Assembly: GCA_036504895.1 (NCBI GenBank)
Contig: DASXUJ010000020.1
Location: 1 to 35,612 of the forward strand
Length of the DNA: 35,612 nucleotides
DNA from: Syntrophorhabdaceae bacterium
Lineage (GTDB): Bacteria > Desulfobacterota > Syntrophorhabdia > Syntrophorhabdales > Syntrophorhabdaceae
Reading direction: 5' to 3'
The notes below the pieces were generated by a model. That model was not told the origin of the DNA. It did no database searches and worked only from the letters and a program-made list of their open reading frames with translations. Shown here in pieces: positions 2,561-35,592 of the stretch. Position numbers and translations under genes: made by a program. The first letter of the stretch is position 1, and each line of letters starts with the position of its first letter.

Positions 2561-2588
2561 TTGACATTCCCCGTCTCTATGTTAATGT
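2561..2588 (+). promoter_or_regulatory. candidate promoter of the peptide gene
   Basis: A perfect -35 box TTGACA (2561-2566) is followed after 16 nt by a weak -10 TAATGT (2583-2588), 51 nt before the peptide start. The -35 is convincing; the -10 is poor and may need an activator. Confidence 0.35.
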
Positions 2589-2639
2589 TCTACTTATTAC
2601 CGTGCACCATGCATTCTACAGGAAAGGAGGTGAGAAGTC

Positions 2640-2762
2640 ATGAAAAAAATCTTGAGCAAAGAGGCCCTTGAGAAAGAAGCATCCTTCTGGAGCAGTATGA
2701 AAAAGGCCCTGGAGGAGAGCCCGGCGAAGTCATGCCGCAAGTGAAAAAGCTGAAAAACCTAG
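2640..2762 (+). CDS. RiPP precursor peptide, predicted to contain selenocysteine
   Basis: A tiny peptide gene with an anti-SD-complementary AAGGAGGTGA (2624-2633) 6 nt before the ATG. Conventional reading gives 34 residues, MKKILSKEALEKEASFWSSM then KKALEESPAKSCRK, ending at UGA 2742-2744. In frame follow K-S, a second UGA (2751-2753), K-T and a UAG (2760-2762). With UGA read as selenocysteine the tail is C-R-K-U-K-S-U-K-T, giving evenly spaced C-x2-U-x2-U. A fdhF-like SECIS hairpin begins 1 nt after the UAG. The Lys/Glu-rich leader and short C-terminal core suit a radical SAM substrate, and an SPASM radical SAM enzyme follows. I recall a class named selenobiotic of such peptides; membership is not verified. 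If UGA is not recoded the gene ends at 2744. The gene is seen; recoding and modification are inferred. Confidence 0.75.
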
Positions 2763-2763
2763 C

Positions 2764-2780
2764 GTTGCAGGTTCTGCAAC
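2764..2780 (+). promoter_or_regulatory. SECIS-like hairpin directing UGA recoding
   Basis: GTTGCAG pairs with CTGCAAC around the triloop GTT (7 perfect pairs). The RNA GUUGCAGGU-UCUGCA-ACCAA is nearly identical to the apical part of the E. coli fdhF SECIS as I remember it, GUUGCAGGU-CUGCAC-CAA, including the loop GU bound by SelB. It starts 10 nt after the second in-frame UGA and 19 nt after the first; in fdhF the shared segment starts about 12 nt after the UGA. It lacks an obvious bulged U, which fdhF has. The sequence also loosely resembles a tRNA T-arm, but the T-loop consensus is absent. Confidence 0.6.
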
Positions 2781-2789
2781 CAAAAGAGT

Positions 2790-2828
2790 GAAGGCAGATA
2801 TGACTGTCCGTCATATCTGCCTTCTTTT
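2790..2828 (+). terminator. intrinsic terminator/attenuator between peptide and maturase genes
   Basis: GAAGGCAGATATGAC (2790-2804) and GTCATATCTGCCTTC (2810-2824) form a perfect 15-bp stem with loop TGTCC, followed by TTTT. It lies between the peptide stop and the ribosome-binding site of the radical SAM gene. Partial termination here would give much more peptide mRNA than enzyme mRNA, as is common in RiPP loci. Confidence 0.7.
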
Positions 2829-2847: not shown

Positions 2848-3909
2848 ATGTCCGTCAACGGATCCTTTTCTTTTTTCGTCCAGTGGCACCTTACTGAGAG
2901 GTGCAATCTCGCATGTACCCACTGTTATCAGGGAGAAACGTCTCCGAAGGAGCTATCTCTCCCTCAAATCCTCTCGGTTATGGAGCAGATATCGACTATG
3001 ATCGCATCATGGTCCGAAGCGTACGGCATCGATTTTACGCCGAGTTTTAATATCACGGGCGGCGAGCCCTTCCTGCGGCGAGACCTCTTCCGGATACTTG
3101 AAGCGGCAAAAGCTCGTGGAGTTGCCGTCTATCTGCTTACCAACGGTACCCTTATCGACAGGCAGCGGGCGAAGAGACTGAGCGATCTCGGCATTGACGG
3201 AGTCCAGGTGAGCCTGGAAGGTCCCCGGGCAATCCATGATCTCATTCGGGGGGAAGGGAATTTTGCCCGCTCCCTTTCAGGTATAGGGCACCTCACGGAG
3301 GTGCGCGTTCCCGTCACACTTAATGCGACTCTCTCGAGGGTCAACTATCTGAATTTCCGTGAAATGATAGATCTTGCACGGGAATTGAGAGTTCAAAGAC
3401 TGGGGTTTTCAAGGCTTGTCCCTTCGGGCAGGGGAACGGGCCTTATGGATGCAATGCTTTCCCGGGAAGAGGTGAAGCGCCTGTATGGGGATATCTTCTC
3501 CCTTGATATCCCGGAGCTGGAACTCGTCACCGGCGACCCGATCGCTTCTGAAATGGAGGATGGATCGGGTGCGAGGGCATTCGATGAGGTAGCTCGGGGA
3601 GGGTGCGCTGCGGCCGTATCCGGCATTACCCTTATGGCCGACGGGACCGTGACTCCCTGCAGGAGGCTTCCCATCCCCATCGGTAACGTGCTCACCGACT
3701 CTTTAAGGGAGATATGGGCTACGTCGGAGGTGCTTCAGAGGCTGAGGAACAGGGATCTTTATAAAGGCAAGTGCGGCCGCTGCGAGCGGTGGTCTTCGTG
3801 CAGGGGTTGCAGGGCCATTGCCTACGCCCATTCTTTTTGCCTGGGGGCGGGAGACTATCTTGCCGACGACCCCCAGTGTTTCATCCAAATTGATGACGAA
3901 AAACATTAA
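2848..3909 (+). CDS. radical SAM/SPASM peptide maturase
   Basis: A 353-residue radical SAM enzyme expected to modify the adjacent peptide. The N-terminal CNLACTHC (Cys19, Cys23, Cys26) binds the SAM-cleaving 4Fe-4S cluster, followed by the SAM-binding [12 protein letters not shown]. The C-terminus is a full SPASM domain for auxiliary clusters: a Cys, then GTVTPC, then [13 protein letters not shown] (C-x2-C-x5-C-x2-C), then further Cys in HSFC and DDPQC. The start is set by AGAGGAG at 2837-2843. It lies about 100 nt after the peptide gene and behind the attenuator hairpin. SPASM enzymes of this size typically install thioether, C-C or epimer changes in RiPPs; the actual chemistry here is unknown. 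It overlaps the last bases of the convergent phosphofructokinase gene. Confidence 0.9.
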
Positions 3910-10277: not shown

Positions 10278-11027
10278 ATGGTGGACGATCATAAAAACGA
10301 CTGTGCGGTCTGCGGGAAACCGCTCGTCTATCCCGATACACTCCGGAGCGCGACCTGCTCGTACTGTAAAAGGCCTTTCGTGGCTAACGCCCTGTGCGAG
10401 GCAGGCCACTACGTGTGCGACGGTTGCCACAGCCTGAGAGGCAATGACCTGATCGAGAGATACTGCCTTTCCGTGGAGACCACGGACCCCCTGGAGACGG
10501 CCCTGGTGCTCATGAGGAGTCCCATGATCAAGATGCACGGGCCGGAACACCATTTTCTCGTGCCTGCCGTGATTCTGAAGGCCTATTACAATGCGTTGAA
10601 TATCCCCGCTGAAGCGGAGTCGGCCCTTCGGATGGCGAGGCAGCGGTCTGAAAAGGTGCTCGGAGGTTTCTGCGGTTTTTATGGCAATTGCGGCGCGGCA
10701 GTGGGCACGGGCATTGCCGTGAGCGTAATTACGGGCGCTACTCCCCTTTCAAGAAAGGAGTGGAGACAAAGCAACCTTATGACCGCAAAGAGCCTCCTCA
10801 CTATCGCCCATCATGGCGGACCGAGATGCTGCAAGCGAAACTCATTCCTTGCTATCAGGGAGGCAGTGGGATTTATCGAAGAGGAGCTTGGTGTTACCCT
10901 TACGAAAGGAGAGCCGAAATGTGAGTTCAGCCATTTGAACAGAGAATGTCTCGGGGAAGATTGTCTTTTTTATGGGGGAGAAGGAGGCACCCGGCCGTCA
11001 CGGGACTTGCCGATAAGACTCCTATAA
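10278..11027 (+). CDS. DUF5714 Cys-rich putative metal-binding protein
   Basis: A 249-residue cytoplasmic protein. The N-terminus is a zinc-ribbon-like region with CAVC, CSYC, a Cys-x3-His (CEAGH) and CDGC within the first 55 residues. The core holds GFCGFYGNCGAAVGTGIAVS, GATPLSRKEW and GGPRCCKRNSFLA, and the C-terminus CEFSHLNRECLGEDC. This set of motifs matches DUF5714 as I remember it, a family seen in methanogens and anaerobic bacteria, sometimes next to or fused with methyltransferases; its function is unknown. The Cys clusters could bind zinc, Fe-S or a corrinoid-related metal (inference). GGAGG is 2 nt before ATG 10278 and 5 nt before GTG 10281, so GTG may be the true start. Its 3' end overlaps that of larC by 6 nt. 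Confidence 0.75.
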   Translation: MVDDHKNDCAVCGKPLVYPDTLRSATCSYCKRPFVANALCEAGHYVCDGCHSLRGNDLIERYCLSVETTDPLETALVLMRSPMIKMHGPEHHFLVPAVILKAYYNALNIPAEAESALRMARQRSEKVLGGFCGFYGNCGAAVGTGIAVSVITGATPLSRKEWRQSNLMTAKSLLTIAHHGGPRCCKRNSFLAIREAVGFIEEELGVTLTKGEPKCEFSHLNRECLGEDCLFYGGEGGTRPSRDLPIRLL

Positions 11028-12179
11028 AGAAAGGATCTTCTTGATGTCTTCGAGCACCTTCCGGTAGGGCAGCCCTTTTTCATCGGCGATTCTCCTCACG
11101 TCTTCAAATTCTATGTGGCTCTTGAGAAGCCTTCCTTTGTCATCGAACCCGTCCTTGATCTGCACGGGTCCATACGCCGTTTCCACGGTCCGCACTTCCC
11201 TCCGGAGCACCCGTCTCTCTTCTTTTCTTACCCTCACGCCGAAGGTGCTCGTCTCGAGAAACACGAGTTCTACGAGGTCCTTCAGTCTCTCCCCGGAGAC
11301 GGTGAGCGATAGTCGTACTCCCGGCCGGCCCTTCTTCATGTACACGGGGAAATAGAGCACGTCGAGGGCGCTGTGAGCCTTAAGCCGCTCCGTCACACTG
11401 CCCAGGTACTCTGTTTCCATGTCGTCGAGATCGGTCTCTATGACCCAGACTTCTTCATCGGTAGAGTATGGGTCTGTCGCCCCAATGAAGACCCTCAGCG
11501 CGTCCGGCCGGTCTGTCTCATAGGTTCCGAGTCCGTAGCCCATGGCGTGGACCTTCATTGCGGGGCATTTCCCATTGTCTTTCACGTAATGCTTCACGAT
11601 GGCGGCGCCTGTGGGTGTGGTAAGCTCCACGGGGAGCTCGAGGAAGACCACGTTATAACCTTTCAATATCTCCACTGTCGCGGGGGGAGGGTTGGGAATG
11701 ATACCGTGGGCAGTCTTGATTGTGCCCCTCCCATGGGGGATGGGACCGGCATATACCTTGTCTATCCCAAGGAAATGAATCCCCTTCGCCACGGACAGGA
11801 TATCTATCAGCGTATCGATATGGGACAGCTCGTGGAGGTGGGTCGATTCTTTCGGGACCCCATGAACACATGATTCCGCCTCGAGAATAATATCCAGTAT
11901 TTCCTTCGCATCCTTCTTTACAGGCTCTTCCACGGCAAGATCGTCAATGATCGCGATCATCTCGGCTGGGGAGAGGTGAACATGAGACTCGGCGATGTCG
12001 AGATGGGTGCCCTCGATCATTCCCTGTCGCATCTTGCGCGGGCTTATGGAAGGCATAGGGAGAGGGATTTTCTTGAGAAGGCCCTCGATCTCGGCAAAGG
12101 GCAATCCTGCGTCGAGAAGGGCGCTGATCGTCATGTCGCCGCTAATTCCGAGGATGGGATCGAGATAAAGTATTTTCAT
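11022..12179 (-). CDS. larC: LarC nickel insertion protein (nickel-pincer cofactor synthesis)
   Basis: LarC inserts nickel, with CTP, into pyridinium-3,5-bisthiocarboxylic acid mononucleotide to make the nickel-pincer nucleotide cofactor of LarA-type racemases. The N-terminus MKILYLDPILGISGDM is the family signature, and STHLHELSHIDTLIDI carries the conserved His-rich motif. At 385 residues it is a single uninterrupted frame, unlike Lactiplantibacillus plantarum, where larC needs a programmed frameshift. It overlaps larB by 4 nt (ATGA) and is the last gene of the ffh-to-larC operon. No larA or larE lies in the window, so the cofactor's user and the sulfur-transfer enzyme are elsewhere. Confidence 0.93.
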   Translation of the reverse strand: MKILYLDPILGISGDMTISALLDAGLPFAEIEGLLKKIPLPMPSISPRKMRQGMIEGTHLDIAESHVHLSPAEMIAIIDDLAVEEPVKKDAKEILDIILEAESCVHGVPKESTHLHELSHIDTLIDILSVAKGIHFLGIDKVYAGPIPHGRGTIKTAHGIIPNPPPATVEILKGYNVVFLELPVELTTPTGAAIVKHYVKDNGKCPAMKVHAMGYGLGTYETDRPDALRVFIGATDPYSTDEEVWVIETDLDDMETEYLGSVTERLKAHSALDVLYFPVYMKKGRPGVRLSLTVSGERLKDLVELVFLETSTFGVRVRKEERRVLRREVRTVETAYGPVQIKDGFDDKGRLLKSHIEFEDVRRIADEKGLPYRKVLEDIKKILSL

Positions 12180-12916
12180 AATCTATTGATCAAGGTGGCG
12201 AAATAGGCGGCCCCGAAGCCGTTGTCGATATTGAATACCGAAATGGTGGAACAGGAATTGAGCATGGCGAGAAGGGCTGTGAGGCCTCCGAAGCTCGCGC
12301 CGTAGCCAATGCTCGTGGGCACCCCTATCACCGGCACCCCGACCATGCCTGCCACCACCGAGGGCAGCGCGCCTTCCATACCCGCGGCCACTATGATAAC
12401 CCTTGCCTCCCTGAGTACTTCGAGGTTGCTGAAGAGCCTGTGTATCCCGGCCACGCCCACGTCGTAAACCTTCTTTGTCTCATTACCGAAGAAGAGGGAG
12501 GTCATGTAGGCTTCCTCCGCGACCTTTGCGTCACTGGTGCCCGCGGAGACTACTACAATGGGGCCCTTTCCTTTGATGGTGCGGTCTTTCTTTATGAAAA
12601 ACAAGCGGCCTTCCTCATGGTAGGCGCCTTCGGGGAATTTCTCCCGGAGCTTCCTGCCCACTTTGCTCTCGATCCGGGTCACGAGGACGTCCACTTCCTT
12701 CTCTCTCATCGATTTGACGATATCGAGGATTTGGGGAAGGCTCTTGCCTTCGCCGAAGATCACTTCCTGAAGGCCTTTTCTCAGGGACCTGTGGTAATCG
12801 ATCTTTGTATGCTCCAGGTCCTCGAAAGGCATGCCTTTCAGGGCATCGTACGCCTCTTCAACCGGAAGTGACCCGTCTTTTACCTTCGTAAGCAGCTCGA
12901 TCAATCTTTTATCCAT
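12176..12916 (-). CDS. larB: LarB nicotinate dinucleotide carboxylase/hydrolase
   Basis: LarB carboxylates nicotinic acid adenine dinucleotide at C5 and releases AMP, the first step to the nickel-pincer nucleotide. The 246-residue protein has an N-terminal helical region with the DYHRSLRKGLQEVIFGEGKS motif and a C-terminal PurE-like domain. In the latter are VVSAGTSDAKVAEEA, GMEGALPSVVAGMVGVPVIGVPTSIGYG, and a closing NIDNGFGAAYFA. Length and motifs match full LarB. It couples to larC by a 4-nt overlap and starts 27 nt after yraN. Older annotation as an AIR carboxylase-like protein reflects the PurE domain. Confidence 0.93.
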   Translation of the reverse strand: MDKRLIELLTKVKDGSLPVEEAYDALKGMPFEDLEHTKIDYHRSLRKGLQEVIFGEGKSLPQILDIVKSMREKEVDVLVTRIESKVGRKLREKFPEGAYHEEGRLFFIKKDRTIKGKGPIVVVSAGTSDAKVAEEAYMTSLFFGNETKKVYDVGVAGIHRLFSNLEVLREARVIIVAAGMEGALPSVVAGMVGVPVIGVPTSIGYGASFGGLTALLAMLNSCSTISVFNIDNGFGAAYFATLINRL

Positions 12917-28133: not shown

Positions 28134-28310
28134 TATTGCATAGTAGGCTGAGTAGAATGAGATGCCATGCAGCTCTTATCCTTTTCTTTTTCACCTCTCT
28201 TCACGAAGGGCAATTCCTCCCATGACCGGTTTCTGATTTCTGCTGCATCCCAGTACTGAAAGATAATACCCAATATCCGGCAAAGCCGGGCCAAACCCAT
28301 GGAGGTTGCC

Positions 28311-30377
28311 ATGAATGAGAATGGTGCAAAGTCGCTTGTTCACCACCTGAAGGAAGTCAAGGAGGGGAACAGGAAGTTCGAAAACGCTTTCGAGAGCGTT
28401 GCCCGCATGATACTCGAAAAGAACGATATGATCGAAAAAGTCATGGTCAATGGAAAGAGCACCTATGACTTCGGGATATTCAGAAAGGGACAGAAGCATG
28501 TGATCGGCATGTTCGATGAGATCAACAGCTTCGTTTCGAGTGTCAAAGATGCAGCGGAAGGGGGCTCTTCGAGGGAGATGGCCTTTGTTCTTGTGGGCGA
28601 GCCCGGCAATGGAAAGACATTCCTGGTAGAGAACCTCTGCGCCCTCTACCGCAGGTTTCTGAGCCAGGTGGAAAACCGCCGGTTCACATTCAACTTTACC
28701 CATCTCGATCGCATGGAAACCTATGGAAAAATAAAAACCGTCCAGTCCCAGACTTTCGAGGACCCCATTATTCTTGCCATGAATCTCTTCCCCTATGATG
28801 GCAGATCGAAGGAATTCCTCGCCGAGCATGGCGGATTCGACGACAGGGAGATCGAAGGACTCTATGAAAACTACAGGCCTCTCGGTGCATGCAGCGACTA
28901 CATCCTGAACGATATGAGAAACAGTGTCGACGGGGATATCGAAAAGCTGCTCGAGTGCATCGAAGTGGTCCCCGTGCCCATGAGCGAGAGCCTCGGGACG
29001 ATTACGGGCAAGTACTCCGCAAAAGACAAGATCACCTCCTCGGCAGTGGACCTTTTGGGTGAGGAATCGATCCAGCGCCTCCTCCACCTGTCCGACCCGA
29101 ATAACCCTTACAGGTTTGACCTCAGGAGGGGGGCCCTGGCACGGGTGGCTGGAGGCGGGATACATTTCAGTGACGAGGTGTTCAAGAACAAGAAAGACCT
29201 CGTCCAGGTATATCTGGGCGTAATTCAGAACCGGTCCATAGAGATCGACGGGTTCCGCTGGCCGATCGATACCCTTATCATAGCCACCAGCAACAACTCC
29301 GAGTTCAACAGGTTTCTCGCAGAGAAAGAAGAGGCGCCCATCGTCGACAGATGCAGGATATGCTACGTAGCCCACAATACCGACTACAGGCTCCAGTATA
29401 GTCTTACGCAGTACGCCCTGGGAAGCGAGGTGAAAACCACTCTCACCAAGGAGCGGCTCCATCAGGATCCGAATCTTAATTACGCGGCCTCAGTAGGGGT
29501 CGTGCTGACACGCCTTCCCAAAACCGAAAAATTGACGGCTATCGAAATGATGAAGCTCTCTGCGGGCGAAGTGGCGGGAGAGAAGAGTATCAAGACCCTC
29601 TCGGAAGTCATCGATATGCTTAACCACGAGCCGGATATCACCAAAAGGTTCGGACAGAAGGGACTAGGTCAGAGGGACCTGGGCAGGGCACTTCAGATGC
29701 TCATGGAAACCTCCGAGACCAATGAAGGTCAGTGCATGTTTGCGGAAGACATCTTCAAGGCCCTGGAAAAGGTAATTCTCGATTATGTGACGGAACCTGC
29801 CGAGAGGGTCAAATACTTCGAGGACCTGAAAGTCGCCAAGGGCCTCTATCGCGAGCGGATTATGACGGAGATGTTTAATGCATACATGGACGAGCCCCTC
29901 GCCATCAAGAGAGACGTGATGAATTACGTCAACATGATAATCGGGGTGGACGCGGAAAACCTCGGCCAGGACAGGATGTGGAAGTATAAGGACCCCCAGA
30001 CGGGTCAGCTCAGGGCATTGAAGATCGATGAGCGTTTCATCCAGAGTGTGGAGGAGAGGCTCGGCCTGAAAACAGAGGAGCAGAGGGAATCCTTCAGGAC
30101 CTCCATTCGAAAGATCTATGGCCAGAAGATTTCCGTCGACCCTGATTATGACTTCATGGACAATATAGAACTGGTAAAGGCGGTCACCGACGTGAGACTG
30201 AAATCGGATATCGCCGGTGCGGGAAGCCTCATAGGCGCCCTTGCAAACAGGACGAACGAGGAGAACCAGAAGCTCTACGACAGGATGATCACCACCATGC
30301 TGGACAAGCTCGGGTACTGCTCGACCTGTGCCCAGAAAACCATAGAATATTTCTGTACGAAAAACGATGAAAACTGA
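28311..30377 (+). CDS. prkA: PrkA-type AAA+ protein (serine protein kinase family), first paralogue
   Basis: A 688-residue protein of the PrkA/YeaG family, AAA+ ATPases reported to have Ser/Thr kinase or AAA+ protease-like activity. Walker A is GEPGNGKT (96-103). GGGIHFSDEVFKNKKDL holds a Walker-B-like Asp288-Glu289, followed by the PrkA stretch QVYLGVIQNRSIEIDG and TLIIATSNNSEF. The C-terminal half (VKYFEDLKVAKGLYRE, FNAYMDEPLAIKRDVMNYVNM, MDNIELVKAVTDVRLKSDIAGAGSLIGALANRT) matches the PrkA C-terminal domain. The ATG at 28311 has GGAGG 5 nt upstream, better than ATG 28299. It overlaps the DUF444 gene by 11 nt and heads a four-gene operon. Confidence 0.9.
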   Translation: MNENGAKSLVHHLKEVKEGNRKFENAFESVARMILEKNDMIEKVMVNGKSTYDFGIFRKGQKHVIGMFDEINSFVSSVKDAAEGGSSREMAFVLVGEPGNGKTFLVENLCALYRRFLSQVENRRFTFNFTHLDRMETYGKIKTVQSQTFEDPIILAMNLFPYDGRSKEFLAEHGGFDDREIEGLYENYRPLGACSDYILNDMRNSVDGDIEKLLECIEVVPVPMSESLGTITGKYSAKDKITSSAVDLLGEESIQRLLHLSDPNNPYRFDLRRGALARVAGGGIHFSDEVFKNKKDLVQVYLGVIQNRSIEIDGFRWPIDTLIIATSNNSEFNRFLAEKEEAPIVDRCRICYVAHNTDYRLQYSLTQYALGSEVKTTLTKERLHQDPNLNYAASVGVVLTRLPKTEKLTAIEMMKLSAGEVAGEKSIKTLSEVIDMLNHEPDITKRFGQKGLGQRDLGRALQMLMETSETNEGQCMFAEDIFKALEKVILDYVTEPAERVKYFEDLKVAKGLYRERIMTEMFNAYMDEPLAIKRDVMNYVNMIIGVDAENLGQDRMWKYKDPQTGQLRALKIDERFIQSVEERLGLKTEEQRESFRTSIRKIYGQKISVDPDYDFMDNIELVKAVTDVRLKSDIAGAGSLIGALANRTNEENQKLYDRMITTMLDKLGYCSTCAQKTIEYFCTKNDEN

Positions 30378-31617
30378 TAAAAAGGGTCCCCCTTCCACAG
30401 CTCTTTACGACAGCTCCGACCTGAGCTTCTTTAAGTTGTCGGTCCCTTCCCCTTACTCCTATATCCATACCATCGGCTCCATAGAAGACCTTATTGAGAG
30501 GGACGTACAGAGGGAGAAGGACGGCTTTCCCAGAAAGATCAGGCTCGGAAGGCTGCTCAAGCCGGTGATCGGAGGCAAGGAGAAGACGGTGGTGGTCCCC
30601 ACCACGGTTGAGGAAAAGTTCTATCATGATTCGCGGAATCCCGACGAGGAGCAGCAGGAAGGTACGGGGGGAACGGGAGACGGCGAGGAGGGTGAGGTAA
30701 TCGGAGAGGAGCCCTTCCATGAGAAATCGGAGGGTGGAAGCGGCGGCCATGGCCAGGGAGAAGGGGGAGACCATGAGATCGAGACTACCCTCTACGATCT
30801 CGGCAGGATCCTTACCGAAAAGTTTCAGTTGCCGAACCTTAAGGAAAAAGGCACGAAACGCTCCATGAAGAAGTTCACCTACGACCTCACTGACAAGCAC
30901 CGTGGTTTCGGCCAGGTCCTGGACAAGAAAGCAACCCTGCGGAGGGTCCTCCAGACGAATATGGGTCTCGGGAGGATCAGCGACCCCACCGACATAGACC
31001 CTGCGTCGCTCCTTGTCTCTCCTCAGGACAGCATTTACCGTATTCTTTCAAAAGAACAGGACTACGAGGCCCAGGCCCTCGTCTTTTTCATCCGTGACTA
31101 TTCAGGCTCCATGTCGGGCCTGCCCACGGAAGTAATTGTGACCCAGCACGTGATGATCTATAGCTGGCTCCTCTTTCAGTACCAGGGGCAGGTGGAGACG
31201 CGGTTTATTCTCCACGATACCGCGGCGCGGGAGGTGCCCGATTTCTACACCTATTACAGCCTCTCCATAGCAGGCGGCACCAAGATGGAGTCCGCCTACA
31301 GGATGGTCAACGAGATCGTGGAAAAAGACGGTCTGGACCGGGATTACAATATTTATGTGTTTCAGGGTACCGACGGCGACGACTGGGACGTGACGGGAGA
31401 GCAGACGGTTCCCGAGCTTGGGAAAATGCTCGCCTACAGCAGCAGGATGGGCATTACGATTACAAGCCCCGGCGAGGGCTCTTATTCGACGACCACGGCG
31501 GGCAGATACCTGGGCGAGGTGGCGGAGAAGCGCCCGGATAAGCTGAAGATCGATCTGATCGGTGACAACCCTGAAGAATCCCGGCTTATCGAAGGCATCA
31601 AGAGGCTTATCTCGTGA
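30367..31617 (+). CDS. yeaH: DUF444 (YeaH/YhbH) protein with VWA-like domain
   Basis: A 416-residue protein of the YeaH/YhbH family, regularly coded with PrkA; in E. coli yeaG-yeaH form an operon induced by starvation. After the N-terminal region comes a Gly/Glu/His-rich flexible linker (about 98-136). The C-terminal half is a von Willebrand A-like domain with the MIDAS motif DYSGSMSG (244-251) after ALVFFIR, and SIAGGTKMESAY with the second metal-site Thr. The linker and MIDAS are typical of DUF444. Sporulating relatives need it for cortex formation, but its biochemical role is unknown. Its start overlaps the prkA end by 11 nt. Confidence 0.93.
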   Translation: MKTDKKGPPSTALYDSSDLSFFKLSVPSPYSYIHTIGSIEDLIERDVQREKDGFPRKIRLGRLLKPVIGGKEKTVVVPTTVEEKFYHDSRNPDEEQQEGTGGTGDGEEGEVIGEEPFHEKSEGGSGGHGQGEGGDHEIETTLYDLGRILTEKFQLPNLKEKGTKRSMKKFTYDLTDKHRGFGQVLDKKATLRRVLQTNMGLGRISDPTDIDPASLLVSPQDSIYRILSKEQDYEAQALVFFIRDYSGSMSGLPTEVIVTQHVMIYSWLLFQYQGQVETRFILHDTAAREVPDFYTYYSLSIAGGTKMESAYRMVNEIVEKDGLDRDYNIYVFQGTDGDDWDVTGEQTVPELGKMLAYSSRMGITITSPGEGSYSTTTAGRYLGEVAEKRPDKLKIDLIGDNPEESRLIEGIKRLIS

Positions 31618-31634
31618 AGAGAGGACGGTAACCC

Positions 31635-33287
31635 ATGGAATTAGTGAGTCAGCACACGAAAAAGATCATGGAAGGGTGCAAGGAGCGGGCAAAAGACGCG
31701 GGCCTTACCTTCCAGACCGAAACGCTTGAATATATCGTATCGAACAAGGACCTCCTCGAGCTCGGCCCGAAGAACATGATCCCCACCCTCTATGATTACT
31801 GGGTTCATGATGTGGAAGTGCTGAGAGAGAAGGGGAAGTACGAGCTTTTCCCCCACAACCCCTATGAGACGGTAATAAACACGAGACCTGCCATCTCGTT
31901 CTATAACGATAACAATCCCGATTGGCTCAACGTGATGATCTTCTACCACGTCCTCGCCCATATCGATTTCTTTCAGAACAACCTCTACTACCGGCATACC
32001 TGGGACGAGGATTTCGCGGGTCAAGCCTTATCGGATAAGAGGACCGTCGCAATGCTCCGCTCCGAGAAGGGCAGGTGGGTCGATTACGTAATAGAATTCG
32101 CCCGCGGCATAGATAACCTGGTCAATTATTACGGGGTCCTTTCCGATTTCGACCGGGCTTCGGAATCGAAGGAATCGAGGCGTCTCGACTATTATTACGA
32201 CATCTTTCTTCAGAAGGTGAAGGGCGTCACCATGACGGAGTACCTGAAGGAGTTGGAACGGTATAACGAGGCCGTCTCGCAGTATGGAGCGATGGGGGCA
32301 TCCGTCTTCTTTTCGGCGGTGGTAAGAAAATATCCCGAATTTGAGGCAATGTTCGAAAGGCAAAACAAAAAAGGGAAATCCGTTCCCCCGGACATCCTGC
32401 AGTTTCTCGAAACCCACTCCCCCTTTCTCCAAAAAGAGGAGAACCGGTGGATGATCACCATTATGGAGATTGTGCGCAAGACCTCCCTTTATTTTCAGCC
32501 CCAGATACGGACGAAGATCATGAATGAAGGGTGGGCAAGCTATTGGCATGATCAGCTTTTCATGAAAGATACCAGGATTAAAGGGAACGAGGTCAACTAT
32601 GCGAGTGTGAATGCAAAGGTTACAGCCCTTCCCCGGATGGGTCTCAATCCGTATGCCCTCGGCATGCGGCTCTTCTCATTCATCGAGGAAATGGCGGGGA
32701 AAGGCAGGCTCGGCTATGATTTTCAAAGAATCACCCGATCGAACGAAAGGAACGATTTCGACAAAAAGAGCGACACGGCCCGTGATTGCGTATTCAAAGT
32801 AAGGAGTAACCTCAATGACTTCGTCTTCATCAATACCTTCATAGATCAGGATTTTGTCGACAGGTACAAACTCTTCGTGACCGGAAGACGGCCGAATGCG
32901 GAAAAAAACGCCTGGGAATATTATGTGAAGAGCAGAAAAGCTGACGACTACAAACAGATGCTCCTCGATTCCCTCTATCATCCGCCTCATATCAAGGTAA
33001 ATGAGGAAAAATCAAAGGAGGGGTCCCTCTATCTCGACCACCGCTTCGAGGAAAAACCTCTCGTCCAGGAATTTATCGCCAATACCATGATGGGCATCGA
33101 ATATCTGTGGGGAGGGCCCGTAAAACTGGAAACCACGGAATTCGTGGCCGAGTCGGATCTGAGGAGGACTGAAAAATATTATTACGGTATGGGGAGAAAA
33201 CTGGCCCAGGGGAGTAAGAAGAAAGTGGCCCGGAGGACGGTTTACACGATGGAAAAACAGAAACTTACCAAAATCCTGATGCAATAG
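31635..33287 (+). CDS. spoVR: SpoVR family protein
   Basis: A 550-residue SpoVR/YcgB family protein. The N-terminal region has PTLYDYWVHD, RPAISFYNDNNPDWLNVMIFYHVLAHIDFF in its essentials (the key part is HVLAHIDFFQNN with His105, His109 and Asp111, a likely metal site), and GRWVDYVIEFARGIDNLV. The C-terminal part has MNEGWASYWHDQL, another His-containing motif (E-G-W-A-x-x-W-H) that is a hallmark of the family, and NPYALGMRLFSFIEE. SpoVR is needed for spore cortex in Bacillus and co-occurs with PrkA and DUF444 in non-sporulating proteobacteria. It starts 17 nt after the DUF444 stop with GAGG upstream. Confidence 0.94.
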   Translation: MELVSQHTKKIMEGCKERAKDAGLTFQTETLEYIVSNKDLLELGPKNMIPTLYDYWVHDVEVLREKGKYELFPHNPYETVINTRPAISFYNDNNPDWLNVMIFYHVLAHIDFFQNNLYYRHTWDEDFAGQALSDKRTVAMLRSEKGRWVDYVIEFARGIDNLVNYYGVLSDFDRASESKESRRLDYYYDIFLQKVKGVTMTEYLKELERYNEAVSQYGAMGASVFFSAVVRKYPEFEAMFERQNKKGKSVPPDILQFLETHSPFLQKEENRWMITIMEIVRKTSLYFQPQIRTKIMNEGWASYWHDQLFMKDTRIKGNEVNYASVNAKVTALPRMGLNPYALGMRLFSFIEEMAGKGRLGYDFQRITRSNERNDFDKKSDTARDCVFKVRSNLNDFVFINTFIDQDFVDRYKLFVTGRRPNAEKNAWEYYVKSRKADDYKQMLLDSLYHPPHIKVNEEKSKEGSLYLDHRFEEKPLVQEFIANTMMGIEYLWGGPVKLETTEFVAESDLRRTEKYYYGMGRKLAQGSKKKVARRTVYTMEKQKLTKILMQ

Positions 33288-33297
33288 GGCAACGAGC

Positions 33298-35592
33298 ATG
33301 ACGAAAGCCGAAGAAGTTCTTCATGGATTAAGCACCAAGATCAGGGAACAGGAGCGCAGGGCCCCTGTAAAGCTTACCGAATTCATGTCCTATGCGAGGG
33401 ATTACCCGGAACGCGTGTTCCGGAACGTCTTTCAAAGAATGTACGATATGGTGATCTCATCGGTCCGAAAAGGCGTGGACGAATATCCGGACGACCCCGA
33501 GTCGATCCAGTACGTATCATATGACTGCGGCAACCTATTCGTGGAAGGCACGGACCACCCTTTTTTCGCAGACCGCCTTTTTGCCAACCGCCTGGTGAAT
33601 CTCTTTTCATCTTTCCGCCACGGGGCACAGCAAAACAGAATATATATATTCGAAGGCCCCCACGGATCGGGCAAGAGCACTTTTCTGAACAACCTCCTCA
33701 TGAAGTTCGAGCAGTACAGCCTGACACCCGAAGGCGGCGCCTATGAGATAACCTGGCATCTCGACAAAAAATCTTTGACCGTGGCAGGAGAAGATGACTC
33801 TCATGCGCTCCTGACCCAATTGATGGGATTGGCTGAAGATTCCCCCTTCCACCCCAAGAAAAGGCTGCAGAAGGAACAGGCCTCTTCTATGTCGCACAAA
33901 GAGTACCTGGATGTCCCCTGTCCCAGTCACGACCATCCCCTTCTCATCGTCCCGAGGGAATACCGGGAAGAGATGATCGACGGCCTCATCAAGGATGAAG
34001 AATTCAAAAAAAAGCTCTTCTCCCATAAACAGTACGAATGGGTATTCAGAGATAATCCCTGCACTGTCTGCCTCTCCCTCTATCAGACGCTCCTCGATAT
34101 CCTCGGATCTCCCGCCAAGGTGTTCGAGATGGTCTACGTACGCCGTTATGAGGTGAACCGCCGCCTGGGCCAGGGAATCAGCGTATTTAATCCCGGCGAC
34201 CGGGGCGCCAAAATGAACGTGGTTACCAACGAGCTTCTCCAGAACCGGCTGAATGCGCTTCTCAAGGATAGTAATCGTGTAAAATATATATTTTCGAGGT
34301 ATGCGAGCACCAATAACGGGGTCTATTCCCTTATGGACATTAAGGCCCATAATAAAGAGCGTTTTGCGAACCTCCACGGCATAATCAGCGAAGGGGTGCA
34401 CAAAGTGGAGGATATCGAAGAAAATGTGAATTCCCTTTTTCTGGCGCTCATGAATCCCGAAGACAGAGAAAATATCGAAGGGGCCCAATCCTTCACCGAC
34501 CGCATTACCCGTATAAAGATGCCTTACGTTCTGGATTACAACACGGAAGTAAAGATTTACAAGAACACTTTCGGGGACCAGATCGAAAAGAGATTTCTTC
34601 CCCGGGTGCTTCAGAACTTTGCAAAGGTCATCATATCATCCAGGCTGAAGGGCGAATCCCAGGGCTGTCAGGAATGGATCGAAGAGCCGGAAAAATACTT
34701 CCTCTTCTGTGATCCGGGCCTTCACCTTCTCAAAATGGATGTCTATGCCGGAACACTGCCTTCGTGGCTCGGCCAGGAAGATAGAAAACGCTTCAATTCC
34801 AAGAGGAGGAGGGCTATTTTCGCAGAGTCCGAGTCGGAAGGGGACAGGGGGTTTTCGGGCAGGGATTCCATCAAAATCTTCAACGAGTTCTTCAGCGTTT
34901 ACGGCATGAACGGTACGCTCGTGAATATGCCGGCAGTCTGCACCTATTTCAGCGAAAAGCGGAAAGACCTTGCGGGGCTCGTTCCCGAGGGGTTCTTCGA
35001 ATCCCTCCTCAGCTCGTACAATTATGCCGTACTCCAGGAAATGAAGGAGTGTCTTTACTATTTCAACAGCGAGCGCGTTTCGATGGATATCCAGAATTAT
35101 ATTTTTGCCACCAATTTCGAGGCCGGTCGCGTGGAGCGGTGCCATTATACCAGCGAGACACTCGACATTTCAGAAACTTTCTTTCAAACCATGGAAAAAC
35201 AGATTCTCGGATCAGGGGCAGACATGGGTCAGATGCGCCAGTTCAGAAGAGAAGTACAGCAGCAATATGCATCCCGGACCTTGACGCAGGAGATCCTCAT
35301 GGACGGAAAACCCCTTGCCGCCACCACTATCTATAATAGCCTCCTTGAAAGGTACGTACACAGTCTGAAGGAGAAGGTAATGGACCCTTTCCTGAAAAAC
35401 GACAACTTCCGGGGCGCCATTAAAGATTTCGGCACCGAAGTATTCAAGACCTACGACAAACGGGTCAGGGACGAAGTCACCTTCCTCATGAAAAACCTTC
35501 AGAGGAAGTATCTCTACTCGTCGAAAGGCGCCAAAGAGATCTGTATCTATGTGATCGACAGCGATCTCGCCCGCACCTTCGCGTCCTCCTGA
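33298..35592 (+). CDS. PrkA-like AAA+ protein, second divergent paralogue
   Basis: A 764-residue PrkA-family protein, fourth gene of the operon, 10 nt after spoVR. Walker A is GPHGSGKS (120-127). Unlike the first paralogue it has a long insert after Walker A with CPSH (208-211) and CTVC (255-258), which correspond to the Cys/His-rich region of canonical PrkA and may bind zinc. The Walker B region reads GVYSLMDIKAHNKERF, with Asp347 followed by Ile where an acidic residue is usual, so ATP hydrolysis may be impaired. The rest keeps LHGIISEGVHKVEDIEENVNS (core of the kinase-like domain) and a C-terminal PrkA domain. It could be a regulatory partner of the first PrkA. No terminator is seen in the last 20 nt of the window. 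Confidence 0.85.
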   Translation: MTKAEEVLHGLSTKIREQERRAPVKLTEFMSYARDYPERVFRNVFQRMYDMVISSVRKGVDEYPDDPESIQYVSYDCGNLFVEGTDHPFFADRLFANRLVNLFSSFRHGAQQNRIYIFEGPHGSGKSTFLNNLLMKFEQYSLTPEGGAYEITWHLDKKSLTVAGEDDSHALLTQLMGLAEDSPFHPKKRLQKEQASSMSHKEYLDVPCPSHDHPLLIVPREYREEMIDGLIKDEEFKKKLFSHKQYEWVFRDNPCTVCLSLYQTLLDILGSPAKVFEMVYVRRYEVNRRLGQGISVFNPGDRGAKMNVVTNELLQNRLNALLKDSNRVKYIFSRYASTNNGVYSLMDIKAHNKERFANLHGIISEGVHKVEDIEENVNSLFLALMNPEDRENIEGAQSFTDRITRIKMPYVLDYNTEVKIYKNTFGDQIEKRFLPRVLQNFAKVIISSRLKGESQGCQEWIEEPEKYFLFCDPGLHLLKMDVYAGTLPSWLGQEDRKRFNSKRRRAIFAESESEGDRGFSGRDSIKIFNEFFSVYGMNGTLVNMPAVCTYFSEKRKDLAGLVPEGFFESLLSSYNYAVLQEMKECLYYFNSERVSMDIQNYIFATNFEAGRVERCHYTSETLDISETFFQTMEKQILGSGADMGQMRQFRREVQQQYASRTLTQEILMDGKPLAATTIYNSLLERYVHSLKEKVMDPFLKNDNFRGAIKDFGTEVFKTYDKRVRDEVTFLMKNLQRKYLYSSKGAKEICIYVIDSDLARTFASS

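Follow-up and report, generated by a model that had tools for sequence, protein, structure and literature searches.

A conserved peptide gene with two putative selenocysteine codons lies beside a radical SAM/SPASM enzyme gene in Desulfobacterota and Nitrospirota

In the window, the whole stretch of 35,612 nucleotides analysed here, we identified a short gene that probably encodes a selenocysteine (Sec) peptide precursor with a CxxUxxUKT core. It is followed by a gene for a radical SAM/SPASM enzyme that would act as the dedicated maturase of the peptide. We put the probability of this reading at about 0.8, and no experimental data are available. That the gene at 2640-2762 carries two UGA codons decoded as Sec, with one SECIS element serving both, is an inference strongly supported by sequence comparison. 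Conservation across ~110 homologous genes is the decisive evidence, and on this ground we accept the decoding. That the peptide is the substrate of the enzyme rests on association only.

The initial annotation of this DNA proposed a peptide reading frame with a ribosome-binding site that passes two in-frame UGA codons before reaching UAG, and all of these elements are present (Table 1). With UGA read as Sec, the conceptual product is MKKILSKEALEKEASFWSSMKKALEESPAKSCRK-U-KS-U-KT-stop, or MKKILSKEALEKEASFWSSMKKALEESPAKSCRKUKSUKT over its full 40 residues. Searches of NCBIfam and Pfam with the peptide gave no meaningful match. The candidate -35 element was not flagged by a promoter consensus scan; a TTGACA-16-TATAAT arrangement is present 5' of the homologous peptide gene in locus L007.

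Table 1. Features of the peptide and enzyme genes, in window coordinates
Feature	Position	Strand	Basis and remarks
Candidate -35, TTGACA	2561-2566	+	Sequence; weak -10 about 16-17 nt further on; inference only
Shine-Dalgarno of the peptide gene, AAAGGAGGTGA	2623-2633	+	Sequence; equivalent site before nearly all homologues
Putative selenopeptide precursor gene, 40 aa with both UGA as Sec	2640-2762	+	ATG at 2640, stop TAG; ~110 distinct homologues
Putative leader, codons 1-31, with conserved (K)EAxFW	2640-2732	+	Family consensus; leader role inferred
Putative core, C-R-K-U-K-S-U-K-T	2733-2759	+	C-x-K-U-x-x-U-K-[S/T/G] nearly invariant in the family
Putative first Sec codon, UGA (Sec35)	2742-2744	+	TGA in 75/75 genes; TGC in one further homologue, L228
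Putative second Sec codon, UGA (Sec38)	2751-2753	+	TGA in 75/75 genes; TAA in one paralogue, L229
True stop, TAG in the window copy	2760-2762	+	Varies across the 75-gene set
Putative SECIS apical hairpin, GTTGCAG(GTT)CTGCAAC, 7 bp	2764-2780	+	Fold; covariation; GGU loop as in the FdhA genes of the same genome
15-bp hairpin followed by TTTTA, terminator/attenuator-like	2790-2824	+	-27.5 kcal/mol, z -6.0
Radical SAM/SPASM protein, 353 aa, CxxxCxxC plus seven SPASM-region Cys	2848-3909	+	PF04055, PF13186; alignment A1; AF2 model

About 110 distinct homologous peptide genes were recovered from metagenome-assembled genomes (MAGs) of Desulfobacterota and Nitrospirota, with the consensus MKK.LSK.ALxKEAAFWxxLKKAxKENPGKV-C[H/R]K-U-K[G/S]-U-K[S/T]-stop and the C-terminus C-x-K-U-x-x-U-K-[S/T/G]. 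The sequences derive almost exclusively from MAGs. Since the family was collected mostly by way of the enzyme, peptides without an enzyme in other phyla would have escaped. The enzyme has ~20 orthologues among relatives, most at 53-58% identity, and 80 named loci in GTDB genomes at 53-61% identity, nearly all of them MAG records. Their titles name Deltaproteobacteria lineages (Syntrophorhabdus, Geobacteraceae, Desulfobulbaceae and others), Nitrospirae and one 'Deferribacteres'.

In the first tabulated set, for which TGA was required at both sites, both were TGA in all 75 distinct genes and the true stop was free to vary (TGA 30, TAA 29, TAG 16). A looser search also admitted Cys codons, plus a stop at the second site, and it returned only two exceptions to the double TGA. 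Both come from genome G269. In L228 the first site is TGC (Cys), with the second UGA and the hairpin retained; in its paralogue L229 the first UGA is intact and TAA stands in place of the second. Genome G269 thus holds two peptide-enzyme pairs, one Cys-x-x-Sec and one Sec-then-TAA, each with a hairpin, as natural single-Sec variants. The comparison of homologues for Cys codons in place of UGA, a check named in the initial annotation, therefore came out positive at the first site (L228/L146), and no Cys codon was found at the second site among the homologues. From the first UGA to the true stop, the sense codons vary in the manner of coding sequence (Lys as AAA or AAG; Ser as AGC, AGT, TCC, TCT or TCG), and at three testable codon columns the synonymous fraction exceeded that of all shuffles (0/2000 each). 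The shuffle tests leave relatedness among the sequences uncorrected.

The hairpin that begins one base past the TAG, 10 nt after the second UGA, was noted at the outset as SECIS-like, and this description stands: it folds, its GGU loop is conserved and its stem covaries. Its minimum free energy is -8.5 kcal/mol, which by itself is unexceptional (z about -1.3 to -1.9). First-order Markov simulations predict 0.003 occurrences per window of a TGA-6nt-TGA combined, at SECIS distance, with a 6-bp hairpin that has a GGU loop; the window contains one. Across the family the GGU loop is kept and the stem changes on both sides. With loops cut to equal length to bring the arms into register, double-changed stem cells numbered 58 against 23.0 +/- 3.7 in shuffles (0/500), and stem covariation was 0.339, with slid controls staying at or below 0.143. 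The untrimmed count agrees, with 15 distinct arm pairs and 82 of 90 pairs formed, where shuffles reached 77 at most. The peptide genes L043 and L044 have degenerate hairpins. Rfam models at permissive thresholds gave only chance-level matches.

In bacterial SECIS models, the apical loop lies about 16-37 nt from the UGA. The GG of the window hairpin is at +17 relative to the second UGA and at +26 relative to the first, and family members span +16 to +28 and +25 to +37, respectively, so that a single hairpin fits both codons. The SECIS of the E. coli fdhF type has a short stem capped by an apical GGU loop. The window hairpin resembles it in loop and stem; it differs in lying 3' of the stop codon and in being one hairpin for two UGAs 9 nt apart. 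The two FdhA (formate dehydrogenase) genes of the window genome carry the same loop (GGUCU) at +19. A second hairpin, resembling a terminator, precedes the enzyme gene (Table 1). Similar hairpins separate peptide and enzyme in most homologues; they are absent from short-spacer members, in some of which the enzyme match starts only 21-42 nt past the peptide stop.

The genome to which the window belongs is equipped for Sec insertion. The search for selA, selB, selC and selD that had been suggested as a check found all four, including the tRNA-Sec gene selC, over curated cut-offs. There are two selD genes, one of them with an in-frame UGA, and an FdhA gene also has an in-frame UGA. The initial annotation would have been refuted by missing sel genes, or by homologues in which neither the reading past the first UGA nor the hairpin was kept; among the homologues both UGAs, the reading past them and the covarying hairpin are conserved. 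Elsewhere in the collection, no selB over the cut-off was found in G109, the MAG of L054 (~85% complete under the handle G054), in which the peptide is present. In G007, the enzyme orthologue is present and neither a peptide nor a selB over the cut-off was found; no Cys-only peptide was found on the contig of that enzyme.

The SPASM radical SAM gene that had been noted 3' of the peptide was confirmed as a protein with PF04055 and PF13186 domains. Its seven SPASM-region Cys are invariant in the 18 members of alignment A1, a pattern consistent with two auxiliary clusters. In the AF2 model (pLDDT 78.6), the closest solved folds are the RiPP maturases SkfB (Z 26.8) and SuiB (Z 26.7), with structural-alignment identities of 24% and 17%, followed by the anaerobic sulfatase-maturating enzymes and ChlB. 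Sequence profiles against solved structures likewise ranked SkfB, PqqE and anSME first. NCBIfam scores all fell below their cut-offs (AhbD 190/500, GeoRSP 163/400, SbtM 152/350). No extension ahead of the radical SAM core that could form an N-terminal RRE was seen (alignment A1; the enzyme's own protein only). Sec within the enzyme itself was considered and rejected, as TGA occurs only at or beyond the gene ends in the 20 orthologues read. A sister radical SAM group from Nitrospirota (L196-L206), with 38-44% identity and the motif FYLQWHIT..CNL.C.HCY, has no Sec peptide upstream.

Peptide and enzyme are closely associated. The peptide lies directly upstream of the enzyme in 69 of the 78 GTDB loci with upstream sequence, and the arrangement is uniform, peptide and then enzyme. 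Among 247 genomes of the phylum of the window, all 10 that bear the enzyme also have the peptide. Two have the peptide only, G016, where the enzyme gene is split, and G219, where the peptide lies 134 bases from the contig end. In seven genomes without a peptide beside the enzyme, covariance model R1 found the peptide elsewhere. These seven unlinked copies indicate that the link between enzyme and peptide is more than shared position. Because R1 was built from enzyme-linked copies, the unlinked hits extend its training set and do not repeat it. The association is not complete. The enzyme is present and no peptide was found in genome G129 and in the genome of L082, and for two close orthologues (L207/L232 and L208/L233) the 8 kb that were read contain no peptide.

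No protease or transporter was found as a conserved neighbour. In the absence of this and of an N-terminal recognition domain in the enzyme, a full RiPP pathway has not been demonstrated. In some lineages, a YceI-like gene (14 loci: L032, L041, L051, L075 and others) or an isoprenylcysteine-methyltransferase-like gene (10 loci: L037, L038, L049, L064 and others) often lies 3' of the enzyme; neither is near the window copy. These names come from reading the sequences, without a profile search. Proteins of both kinds are usually tied to isoprenoid lipids. In four Nitrospirota loci without an adjacent Sec peptide (L077, L086, L087 and L099), a common divergent Cys-rich peptide of ~47 aa, with the C-terminus CFN(K/R)DC(K/R)LR(K/R)QK(S/A)C(K/R)GFEGCPGFKG(K/R), lies on the opposite strand immediately 5' of the enzyme. 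It is possibly another small protein tied to the enzyme. Further along the window, at 11025-12916 on the minus strand, a gene for a nickel insertion protein (PF01969, LarC-like) adjoins one for an AIR-carboxylase-domain protein (PF00731, LarB-like); the pair are likely nickel-pincer cofactor genes. At 28299-35592 on the plus strand, two PrkA-type serine kinase genes lie in one operon-like block.

Several other readings of these data were considered. It is possible that only one UGA encodes Sec and that the other is an ordinary stop, and the two variants in G269 could be taken in this sense, since each has lost one of the codons. However, the second UGA never exchanges with TAA or TAG in the 75-gene set, unlike the true stop, and the codons past it vary as Lys-Ser/Thr up to that freely varying stop. 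L228 moreover has lost only the first UGA and still carries the second together with the hairpin, and we consider a single Sec improbable to a high degree. We give hardly any credence to the notion that the true gene is an overlapping +1 frame starting at 2732 (ATG CCG CAA GTG ...), with the UGAs there by chance. That frame is open for ~19 codons in the window, but in five members with CAT AAA a TAA stands right after the +1 start, synonymous change tracks the UGA frame, and the covarying hairpin would be left unexplained. The SECIS-like and terminator-like hairpins in series between the short frame and the enzyme gene could also suggest a selenium-sensing attenuator, in which reading past the UGAs decides termination at 2790-2824. 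Such a device would not require the N-terminal EAxFW to be conserved at the protein level, nor would it account for peptides apart from the enzyme gene in seven genomes or for the linked members whose short spacer has no such hairpin, and we regard it as very unlikely.

The alternative that deserves more attention, although we still judge it unlikely, is that the two-Sec peptide is never modified. It would then be a finished redox or metal-binding selenopeptide, and the enzyme would make something else or rely on this peptide as its partner or scaffold. The C-x-x-U-x-x-U spacing is like that of CxxCxxC metal ligation, the top enzyme profile, though under its cut-off, is that of a heme synthase (AhbD), and no RRE domain was seen in the enzyme, nor a conserved protease or transporter among its neighbours. 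On the other hand, a leader-like region ending in PGK and followed by a short core looks like a precursor, the pairing with one SPASM enzyme is nearly obligate, and peptide maturases are among the closest solved folds. For these reasons a modified two-Sec precursor remains our preferred reading.

The nearest known system is SbtA/SbtM, called 'selenobiotic' or 'selenobacteriocin' and modelled by TIGR04081/TIGR04082 (Lewis et al. 2021, cited in PMC11002830 and PMC13188914). It is likewise a short ribosomal Sec peptide with a Sec insertion element and a radical SAM/SPASM enzyme. The initial annotation had suggested that the window peptide belongs to this class and that its Sec is altered by a radical enzyme. 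The pairing of a Sec peptide with a radical SAM enzyme was borne out; membership among the selenobiotics was not, as both models fail, and alteration of Sec by the enzyme is inference only. None of the family peptides run against NCBIfam matched TIGR04081, nor did anything in the window genome, and 14 control genomes were equally silent. Against TIGR04082 the window enzyme scored 152.4 bits (cut-off 350), with a match that begins at profile position 199, so that the first ~198 positions are missing; the 18 A1 members behaved similarly (best E 4.1e-45). The SbtA motif is SGUG, in contrast to C-x-K-U-x-x-U-K here. From the failure of both models, the different motif and the missing N-terminal region, we take the family to be separate from SbtA/SbtM.

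Among 119 prokaryotic selenoprotein families, a 2026 review lists one radical-SAM-modified Sec peptide, SbtA (TIGR04081, SGUG) (PMC13188914). The window peptide is absent from that inventory and from NCBIfam and Pfam, and the open-licence literature on selenobiotics, selenoxazole and bacterial selenopeptides offered nothing closer. It was apparently missed because the two UGAs shorten the annotated reading frame to about 34 codons. The family would thus be a second, separate one of Sec-containing radical SAM peptides, although it is not excluded that the family has been described before in places other than NCBIfam/Pfam and the open-licence literature. SkfB and SuiB share the SPASM Cys pattern with the window enzyme, which differs from them in having no N-terminal RRE and in presumed substrates that contain Sec. 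The best profile scores of the enzyme were to the AhbD heme b synthase, NirJ, GeoRSP and ACGX radical SAM proteins, for the window copy all far below curated cut-offs; no Sec peptide is described for any of them.

The mechanism that we propose begins with a precursor of ~40 residues, whose C-terminal core C-x-x-U-x-x-U-K-T would contain one Cys and two Sec, the latter both inserted through the single SECIS hairpin just 3' of the stop. The intergenic terminator-like hairpin may let the cell produce more peptide than enzyme. Judging from linkage, co-occurrence and fold family, the enzyme would attach to the conserved EAxFW leader and alter the Cys/Sec core, for example by forming a seleno/thio-heterocycle or a selenoether cross-link. 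SbtM makes a thio(seleno)oxazole (Lewis et al. 2021, as described in PMC11002830). By analogy this product is the nearest precedent, and either it or a selenoether cross-link is a plausible outcome. The product might bind metal or carry out redox chemistry through its three chalcogens; this, like a metal-binding role of the C-x-x-U-x-x-U tripod, is speculation.

It is conceivable, though doubtful on present evidence, that these genes represent a new and widespread pathway of anaerobic Nitrospirota and Desulfobacterota, in which one SECIS decodes two closely spaced UGAs and a radical SAM/SPASM enzyme turns the Cys-Sec-Sec tripod (CxxUxxU) into a selenium cofactor or metal ligand for primary metabolism. 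If our main reading is true, the peptide would be a second, unrelated radical-SAM-modified Sec peptide beside SbtA. The ~110 natural variants, including the Cys variant and the seven unlinked copies, open testable questions about the action of radical SAM enzymes on Sec, the use of one SECIS for two UGAs, and why anaerobes keep a Cys-Sec-Sec peptide.
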